A stretch of 43,167 nt of DNA from a bacterium. GTDB taxonomy: Bacteria > DUMJ01. The first letter of the stretch is position 1. Every line of letters begins with the position of its first letter. A model generated the notes under the pieces. The model made no database searches and was not told where the DNA came from. It saw only the letters and a program-made list of their open reading frames with translations. Position numbers and translations under genes: made by a program. Below, one piece after another: positions 15,295 to 40,245 of the stretch. The DNA lies in NCBI GenBank assembly GCA_026418035.1, contig JAOACC010000037.1, positions 1 through 43,167 on the forward strand. The letters are read 5' to 3'.

Positions 15295-17391
15295 TTACAA
15301 TTTTTCTAATCCTGCATACTTTGCCAAGAGGTGCTTCTTACCAATATCATTGAACACCACTACCAGTTCTGTTTCCCCGTTTTCTAGAGGACGCACCTCT
15401 TGGATAATCCCTTCTCCCCATCTAGAGTGCCAAACTCTCTCTCCTCTTTCAAAGATAACATCTACCTTTGTAACTGGTTCTATATACTCTTCTGGTATCT
15501 CTTTTACAAATCTAGAGAGCTCGTTACTGTTAGTATGTCCATAAAGTGTTCTTATTTCTGCAGAGGTAAGATATAGATACTTTTTTGCTCTAGTCATACC
15601 TACATAGCACAGTCTTCTTTCTTCCTCTAACTCTTCTCTTTCTCCCATAGATAGACTGTGGGGAAATACTCCTTCTTCCATACCAGTCATAAATACAACT
15701 GGAAACTCTAAACCCTTTGCACTATGTATCGTCATAAGGACCACTGAAGAATTTTCTTCCTCTAATGTATCTATATCTGACATTAGTGATACATAGTTTA
15801 AGAAACTCTCTAAAGTCAGATCTTCTGCCTGTTTAGAGAATTCCTTTGCTACAGATATCAACTCTTCCACATTTTCTATTCTCATCTGAGCTGTAGCTGT
15901 CTGTAGTTCTGATAGTTCTTTTATGTACCCTGTCTTATCTAGCACTTCTATAATAGTATCTTCTATAGAGTGCAATTTAGCATAAGCTATTAGTGCCTCT
16001 ATAAGTTCTATAAATTTTTCTACCTCTTTGCCTACCTTCTTCCCTAGCTCGCCTGCTTCGATTAGATTTTTCATTGCTTCTAAATAATCTATGCCCTTTT
16101 CGTTAGCATAGTCTATGATCTTAGAGATGGTAGCATCTCCTATCCCCCTTCTAGGCGTATTTATTATCCTCTTTAAGCTTATTCCATCATACTGATTTAC
16201 AAGGAATCTTAAATAGGATAAGATATCCTTTATCTCTTTTCTTTGATAGAATTTTATACCACCAATGATTCTGTATGGTATGCCATTTTTTATCATTGCC
16301 TCTTCAAGAGCTCTAGACTGCGCATGAGTTCTATAGAAAACAGCAAAATCTCCAAAATTTAAATTTTCCTTCTTTTGTAGAAGAATAATCTCTCTTGCTA
16401 CAAAATTTGCTTCAGCTATCTCATCTTTGGCTATATAGAGTTTTATCTTGCTTCCAATTCCATTGTTTGTCCAAAGATTTTTACCTTTTCTAAATTTATT
16501 GTGAGCTATAACTTTGTTTGCAGCTTCTAATATGTTTTGTGTTGACCTGTAATTTTGTTCTAGACGGATCACCTTTGCGCCAGGGAAGTCTTTCTCAAAC
16601 TCTAGGATATTTCTTATATCAGCCCCTCTCCAGCTATATATTGCTTGATCATCATCTCCCACTACTGTAACCCTACGATGCATTTGAGCCAATAGGAATA
16701 CTATTACATATTGAGCGTAATTTGTATCCTGATACTCATCAACAAGTATATATCTAAATTTGTTCTGATAATAAGATAAAATCTTTTCATTCTCTCTAAA
16801 TAGCTTGACCAGATACATAAGAAGATCGTCAAAATCTAAGGCTTGGTTCTGTATCAGTTTTTCTTGATACTTCTGATATACTTTAGCAACTACACTTTCA
16901 TAGTAGCTTTCTACAAATTCTCCATAAGTTACAGGGTCTATAAGACTTTCTTTAGCCCTGCTAATCCTTTCTATGAAACCTCCAGGTGGATACCTCTTTA
17001 TATCGAGATTTAACTCTGATATTACTTCTTTTATAAGGGTAGTTTGGTCATCTTCATCAAGAATGGAGAAATTGTTGTTTATTCCCACATATGGCCCATA
17101 TCTCCTTAGTATTTTTACCGCAGTGGCATGAAATGTTCCTAACCATACATCAGTTACTTCTTTTTGTAACAATTTGGCAACTCTAGACTTCATCTCTCCA
17201 GCTGCTTTATTAGTGAATGTAACTCCTAATATACTATCTTCTGGTACATCTAACTCTTTGACAAGATAAGCAATCTTATAAGTTATAACCCTAGTCTTGC
17301 CACTTCCAGCTCCGGCAAGAACTAAAAGTGGTGCCTCTGTATATAAAACTGCTTCTCTCTGTTGAGGATTTAATTCGTCTAGGAAAAACAT
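15295..17391 (-). CDS. pcrA: UvrD/PcrA-family ATP-dependent DNA helicase
   Basis: LNPQQREAVLYTEAPLLVLAGAGSGKTRVI, VVGDDDQAIYSWRGAD, VVLMTIHSAKGLEFPVVF. Confidence 0.95.
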   Translation of the reverse strand: MFFLDELNPQQREAVLYTEAPLLVLAGAGSGKTRVITYKIAYLVKELDVPEDSILGVTFTNKAAGEMKSRVAKLLQKEVTDVWLGTFHATAVKILRRYGPYVGINNNFSILDEDDQTTLIKEVISELNLDIKRYPPGGFIERISRAKESLIDPVTYGEFVESYYESVVAKVYQKYQEKLIQNQALDFDDLLMYLVKLFRENEKILSYYQNKFRYILVDEYQDTNYAQYVIVFLLAQMHRRVTVVGDDDQAIYSWRGADIRNILEFEKDFPGAKVIRLEQNYRSTQNILEAANKVIAHNKFRKGKNLWTNNGIGSKIKLYIAKDEIAEANFVAREIILLQKKENLNFGDFAVFYRTHAQSRALEEAMIKNGIPYRIIGGIKFYQRKEIKDILSYLRFLVNQYDGISLKRIINTPRRGIGDATISKIIDYANEKGIDYLEAMKNLIEAGELGKKVGKEVEKFIELIEALIAYAKLHSIEDTIIEVLDKTGYIKELSELQTATAQMRIENVEELISVAKEFSKQAEDLTLESFLNYVSLMSDIDTLEEENSSVVLMTIHSAKGLEFPVVFMTGMEEGVFPHSLSMGEREELEEERRLCYVGMTRAKKYLYLTSAEIRTLYGHTNSNELSRFVKEIPEEYIEPVTKVDVIFERGERVWHSRWGEGIIQEVRPLENGETELVVVFNDIGKKHLLAKYAGLEKL

Positions 17392-38863: not shown

Positions 38864-39081
38864 AAAATCACCTCTTATATTTAATGTAGTCTTTTTACTA
38901 ACTCTAAGCCCTTATATTATAACATTTAGATTCTAAGATGAATACAGTTGTAAAAGGTACACATAGTGCAGATTGGCTTTATGACAAGATAAATGATGAA
39001 TCCTTAGGGTAGAATTCAATTCTTCGCTAAAAATGAATTAATAAATTCTGATAATAGAAAACCCCTTAGATTAGGGTGGGT

Positions 39082-39110
39082 TTGACTTAAGCATATTCTT
39101 ATAGTATAGT
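39082..39110 (+). promoter_or_regulatory. Sigma-A-type promoter of the TolB-like gene
   Basis: TTGACT (39082-39087)-17 nt-TATAGT (39105-39110). Confidence 0.85.
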
Positions 39111-39113
39111 ATG

Positions 39114-39257
39114 TTTAGAGACAGGATAATGAAAGGAGTTGGGAGTGGGGAAAACGATATAAAATATGGAATATCTCTTGTTTTTCCGAGAGGATTTGGA
39201 TTTTAAGAGAAAGAGTTCTTAAGTATTCTAAAATTTATTCTTTATCTTGTCTCTAAA
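39114..39257 (+). ncRNA. Candidate structured leader RNA closed by a 16-bp stem
   Basis: TTTAGAGACAGGATAA (39114-39129) pairs with TTATCTTGTCTCTAAA (39242-39257): 15 Watson-Crick pairs + 1 G-U; inner hairpin CTCTTG-TTTTTC-CGAGAG (39175-39192). Confidence 0.55.
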
Positions 39258-39293
39258 GTTTAAAATTTTATCTTTATAGAAAGGAGAAAGAAC

Positions 39294-40205
39294 GTGAAAA
39301 GACTTATGAAATTTTTGGCATTTTTTATTGTTCCAAGTCTCTTTCTTATGGGGCTTTATGGCTGTGACAGTTGTAATCCAGAGCCTGTATTGAATTTAGG
39401 AAAGATTATATTTGCTAGTGCACGTGATACAGATGGCGACCTTGAAATCTACATAATGAATCCAGATGGATCTAATTTGACTAAAATTACTGATAACCAA
39501 GCTAATGATTATTATCCCTCATTTTCAAAGGATGGTTCAAAAATTGTCTTTGTTTCTGATCGAGATGGAAATCCAGAGATTTATACGATGAATAGAGACG
39601 GCACAAACCAAGTCAGAATTACAAATAATTCGGCTTGGGATTATTATCCCAATTTTTCTCCAGACGGAAAGAAGATAGTATTTTATTCTAATAGAGATGG
39701 GAATGGGGAAATCTATCTTTATGATTCCACAGTTATTTCCCATCCTCAATTTACTAATCTTACCAATCATTCTAGCTATGATAGATTTCCATCCTTTTCC
39801 CCAGATGGACAAAAGATTATTTTTGTATCTGACCGTGATGGGGATGATGAAATTTATACAATGAATATAAACGGTTCTAACCTGACTAAGCTTACTGACA
39901 ACAATTCTAATGATTGGTTTCCTCGTTTCTCTCTAGATGGGACAAGGATAGTTTTTACATCTATGCGTGATGGAAGTGAAGAGATTTATACGATGAATGC
40001 GAATGGCTCTAATCAAAATAGGCTTACTGAAGATTCTTATCAAGATTGGTATCCATGTTTTTCTCTAATAGGTACAAGGATTGTTTTTCAATCTAAACGT
40101 GATGGGGTTACTTGGGAGATATACACCATGGACCTTAACGGGACTAATTTGACTAGACTTACAAACCATACATCTGGTAATGCCTATCCTTTCTGGGGAC
40201 CATAA
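39294..40205 (+). CDS. TolB/PD40-type beta-propeller lipoprotein
   Basis: Lipobox LYGC; six repeats of GxKIVFxSxRDGxxEIYTMNxDGSNxxxLTxN..D..P.FS; GTG start behind aaggag. Confidence 0.88.
39399..40203 (+). repeat. Six tandem ~43-codon propeller repeats
   Basis: Recurring [21 protein letters not shown] units visible in the translation. Confidence 0.85.
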
Positions 40206-40215
40206 GATTAAGCTT

Positions 40216-40245
40216 GGGGCAGGCTAAAGCCTGCCCCTTTGTTTT
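40216..40245 (+). terminator. Rho-independent terminator
   Basis: GGGGCAGGCT-aa-AGCCTGCCCC then tttgtttt. Confidence 0.93.

Follow-up and report, generated by a model that had tools for sequence, protein, structure and literature searches.

A conserved structured leader with a long closing stem ahead of a TolB-like lipoprotein gene, shared by two genomes of one genus

Two complementary arms that could close a stem of 16 bp lie between a promoter and a gene for a TolB-like protein, and they raise the question of whether the stem acts in the leader of the mRNA and, if so, to what end. The arms were originally noticed in a stretch of 43,167 nt, referred to here as the window, which is contig C88 of G000, an assembly of 2.13 Mb in 168 contigs. 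On re-reading of the sequence and a promoter scan, the arms, the promoter TTGACT-17-TATAGT and the gene starting with GTG were all found where the original prediction had placed them. The arms, TTTAGAGACAGGATAA (39114-39129) and TTATCTTGTCTCTAAA (39242-39257), are separated by a loop of 112 nt, and their single non-Watson-Crick position, G39124/T39247, corresponds to a G-U pair in RNA of the + strand and to an A-C mismatch in RNA of the opposite strand. Among long-range stems of the + strand with at most one G-U pair and a span of up to 180, this one is the longest in the window. In Markov-shuffled windows, stems of 16 bp or longer numbered 0.07 on average and occurred in 2 of 30 shuffles. As genomic background, 20 stretches from 20 other contigs of G000 (392 kb) were searched on both strands; stems of 16 bp or longer did occur there, but every one had a loop of 22 nt or shorter, and none enclosed 60 nt or more.

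The features of the locus are as follows, G001 being a second genome of the same genus:

39082..39110, + strand: sigma-70-type promoter TTGACT-17-TATAGT (sequence and promoter scan); from here on, G000 and G001 are homologous
39117, + strand: predicted transcription start (A at +1, G at +2), placed 6 nt past the -10 box
39117..39129, + strand: 5' arm of helix P1 in RNA, AGAGACAGGAUAA; same sequence in G001; in the leader RNA of the window, P1 pairs with probability 0.85-1.0
39131..39144, + strand: 5' side of rod helices P2-P4, including the purine-rich AAAGGAGTTGGGAG; pairs with 39227-39240 in both species with probability 0.3-0.98
39175..39192, + strand: weak apical hairpin CTCTTG..CGAGAG, terminator-like by scan; pairing probability about 0.25 in both species
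39227..39240, + strand: 3' side of rod helices P2-P4 (pair probabilities in both species)
39242..39254, + strand: 3' arm of P1 in RNA, UUAUCUUGUCUCU; same sequence in G001
39280..39286, + strand: Shine-Dalgarno sequence AAAGGAG, 7 nt before the GTG
39294..40205, + strand: PD40 beta-propeller (TolB-like) protein of 303 aa, probable lipoprotein (Pfam PD40, 6e-52); GTG start at 39294
40216..40245, + strand: intrinsic terminator after the lipoprotein gene, GGGGCAGGCTAAAGCCTGCCCC followed by a T-run; conserved in G001

Since a promoter and a conserved terminator frame the gene, the layout suggests that the lipoprotein mRNA is monocistronic; in the terminator stem of G001 one pair has been changed by compensation, from G-C to T-A. 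The PD40/TolB-like protein is a probable lipoprotein by its N-terminal signal (MKRL..LYGC, read by eye). The predicted start falls inside the 5' arm, so that only 13 of the 16 pairs would exist in RNA. Directly upstream of the -35 box, at 39061-39077 on the - strand, the window also carries a terminator-like palindrome, ACCCTAATCTAAGGGGT, with a T-rich tail, which is absent in G001.

The phylum was sampled by three genomes, all of one genus (G000, G001 and G002). The element is single-copy in G000 and in G001, and in the latter it likewise precedes the orthologous lipoprotein gene (protein identity 84% and 75% in two pieces); conservation of the paired arms in relatives, on which the original prediction was to stand or fall, was thus observed in G001. 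The whole locus is absent from G002, where both the element and a close ortholog of the lipoprotein gene are missing (best TolB-like match 49%, best match to the neighbouring amidohydrolase 32%). A two-arm pattern searched over 386 genomes and a covariance model (R1) searched over 59 genomes each matched in G000 and G001 only, and the model gave no match in G002 or at TolB-like loci from other phyla. In Rfam, the window's leader had no match at the gathering score and no credible one up to E 10, and the leader of G001 had none up to E 5, which, together with the conservation in one relative, supports the proposal of a structured leader, with a long closing stem, that belongs to no recognised class. 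The find is modest and does not amount to a new class of RNA, as only one further known genome shares the element.

Downstream of the gene, amidohydrolases and an oxidoreductase are common to G000 and G001; the upstream neighbour differs, the element in G001 being separated from a truncated ABC-F gene by about 3.6 kb of other genes. The DNA of the two genomes becomes homologous again at the -35 box (window 39081), the preceding 25 bases being unrelated (36%), and the promoter boxes of G001 read TTGACA and TATAGT. Identity in the 5' UTR is 87% versus about 61% at fourfold sites of five nearby genes (260/426); because other intergenic stretches of the locus are also about 85% identical, the overall conservation of the leader appears ordinary. 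The arms of P1 are identical at 29/29 positions, as against 120/143 for the remainder of the leader (Fisher p 0.010). From the predicted +1 (A39117) onwards, all 13 pairs, the G-U pair at G39124/T39247 among them, are unchanged, and the three outer TTT/AAA pairs are lost: the TTT of the 5' arm, which lies upstream of the predicted +1 and would thus be absent from the RNA, is TCC in G001, and the pairing is broken. Since the arms are invariant, the untranscribed outer pairs are lost and the G-U pair is kept, the comparison points to a stem that would act in RNA of the + strand, paired from nucleotide 1.

The same comparison bears on two readings without a role for such an RNA. It is possible, if rather unlikely, that the arms are an inverted repeat of no specific function, arisen by chance in an AT-rich leader or left over as a relict, and kept just through the closeness of the two genomes: with a background identity of about 85%, the probability of 29 identical arm positions is about 0.01, which is not negligible, and stems of this length did arise in the shuffled windows mentioned above. 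However, the stem is placed exactly in the interval that separates the promoter from the gene, its base falls on the predicted +1, it outlasts the loss of upstream synteny, and its changes are confined to the untranscribed outer pairs. Terminal inverted repeats around an AT-rich segment of about 144 bp could also mark a MITE (a small transposon-like repeat) or an invertible segment, which we consider extremely implausible, as each genome has one copy in the same orientation, no target duplication was seen, the outermost repeat bases are not conserved, and the internal sequence is conserved together with the gene.

The leader RNA 39117-39260 folds better than its shuffles (z -3.1, 0/200 as good), and so does that of G001 (z -2.1, 8/200 as good). 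Folding from the predicted +1, a position that is itself a prediction, pairs nucleotide 1. The pairs supported jointly in both species are P1 (13 bp), 39131-39133/39238-39240, 39136-39140/39232-39236 and 39142-39144/39227-39229, and in the predicted fold these conserved pairs make up one long imperfect rod. The multi-helix, riboswitch-like layout of the original prediction was not borne out by these folds, in which internal hairpins, including the proposed CTCTTG/CGAGAG, are weak and the rod is single. Co-transcriptional prediction gives P1 a probability of about 1 once it is transcribed, ahead of the coding region, in both species, and we infer that it also forms in the cell. Changes in the helices between the two species are all one-sided (G-C to G-U, A-U to G-U, G-U to A-U), with no compensatory change in P1, which is invariant, or in P2-P4. 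RNAalifold reported two doubly changed pairs (alignment columns 108-119 and 109-118); these, being close to an indel and vanishing with another alignment and with pair probabilities, were discarded. Single minimum free energy structures of long folds were excluded as evidence, since extensions of 60 nt shift the predicted optimum. The G-rich stretch is not conserved in G001, and a quadruplex was rejected on that ground; a leader peptide (ATG39129, 25 codons) was rejected as well, since its frame in G001 stops after 10 codons (by eye).

A rod-like predicted fold with paired ends would also suit a discrete small RNA of about 145 nt, transcribed from 39117, with a 3' end that lies close to the 3' arm or is formed there by processing, for instance by RNase III, for which the long helix could serve as a substrate. 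Such an RNA is quite unlikely here, as the Shine-Dalgarno sequence and the gene follow within 36 nt and the scan revealed no terminator past the 3' arm. 6S RNA (RF00013) is likewise a long rod-like RNA with paired ends; unlike it, the element has no RF00013 match and leads straight into a gene, and the true 6S RNA of G000 is located elsewhere, at G000:C14:22044-22221.

Riboswitch leaders in general resemble the element in that a closing helix P1 spans a larger domain of the 5' UTR, and a ligand- or temperature-responsive leader of a new class would accommodate the 144-nt leader domain, the long closing stem, the lack of an Rfam match and the possibility, in both species, that early codons compete for the 5' arm. 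Once transcripts extend to about +225 to +237, the 5' arm is predicted to pair preferentially with the signal-peptide codons in both species, and one apparent A-U to G-C change was noted by eye (A39132 with the codons CTCTTT/CTCTTC). However, equal or better leader-coding pairing was obtained in 26% (G000) and 3% (G001) of synonymous recodings, so that the competing pairing is no better than recodings in the former and marginal in the latter; on these controls it is provisionally read as a generic consequence of a purine-rich leader and U-rich codons and is not claimed as a specific feature. P1 hardly alters the predicted accessibility of the Shine-Dalgarno sequence (0.32 against 0.28 in G000, 0.46 against 0.41 in G001), which argues against a simple translational switch; the comparison in G001 is weak in that P1 is absent from that longer fold. 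Neither the scan nor the accessibility predictions revealed a terminator or a sequestered Shine-Dalgarno sequence coupled to P1. With no known class that matches, no expression platform, two members and no second locus with the element, a riboswitch or thermosensor of a new class seems distinctly improbable. A lineage-specific leader in which the 5' arm would pair either with the 3' arm of the leader or with the signal-peptide codons, thereby switching mRNA stability or translation, seems very improbable.

The element is a conserved structured leader, most likely of an ordinary kind, and we tentatively favour, at somewhat less than an even chance, a 5'-terminal stem-loop that would stabilise the monocistronic PD40/TolB-like lipoprotein mRNA against decay dependent on the 5' end. 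The promoter at 39082-39110 would initiate this mRNA at about A39117, and its first 13 nt would pair at once with 39242-39254, leaving the 5' triphosphate end within a helix with zero unpaired 5' nucleotides and P1 continuing into the imperfect rod. Such a helical 5' end may keep a pyrophosphohydrolase and RNase J/RNase Y away and thus prolong the life of the mRNA, with the ribosome loading at the Shine-Dalgarno sequence downstream of the stem. Both RNase J (565 bits against a cut-off of 400) and RNase Y (725 bits against 454) are encoded by G000, in which no RNase E/G was found above the cut-off. RppH of B. subtilis requires a 5' end with two or more unpaired nucleotides and G as the second base; hairpins at the 5' end can make an mRNA more stable in Bacilli and can shield long stretches downstream (PMC3997798). 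By analogy, a transcript that starts A-G in a blunt helix of 13 bp would be such a protected end.

The E. coli ompA and papA leaders and the 5' hairpins of Bacilli share with this leader a 5' terminus that is paired (here by prediction), a ribosome site downstream and an expected protection (PMC3997798). The element has no sequence relation to these stabilising stem-loops, and protection is here predicted from the fold. The stabilising 5' hairpins usually described are also short, whereas the stem in question closes an imperfect rod of about 110 nt. Two points count against a stabiliser: with the signal-peptide codons included, the predicted folds of both species can swap P1 for leader-coding pairing, and the comparison involves two species, in which P1 is invariant and the whole leader, at 87%, is unremarkable. 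If the stabilising role is true, 5'-end protection known from model bacteria would extend to a sparsely sampled phylum with decay enzymes of the RNase J/Y type, and even then no new class of RNA would be opened.

Several minor observations were made at the related loci. In G001, a frameshift near residue 176 divides the TolB-like ortholog (L032 954-1517 and 616-957, G001:C47), and its ABC-F neighbour is fragmented and truncated; these broken genes reflect either decay or assembly errors. The genes, about 3.6 kb in all, that separate the truncated ABC-F gene from the leader (L082 5990-9491, G001:C47) and are absent at this place in the window include those for iron-sulfur proteins with repeated QueG/reductive-dehalogenase-like stretches (named by eye). 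Upstream of the TolB-like gene of G002 (L055, G002:C40, 1210-1405), a GC-rich RNA candidate of about 200 nt folds strongly into a rod (z -7.8, 0/200 shuffles as good) with TTTTTT shortly after; its only full-length bacterial Rfam match is the Dictyoglomi-1 RNA (RF01703; 11.8 bits, E 1.6), well short of the gathering score of 150, and it is possibly a very distant relative of that RNA or an unrelated new small RNA. In the window itself, Rfam n00280 (RF03531) was matched just above threshold at 15555-15653 on the - strand, within a gene for a UvrD/PcrA-like helicase; because this family was described within a helicase gene of C. difficile, the match may simply track conserved coding sequence.
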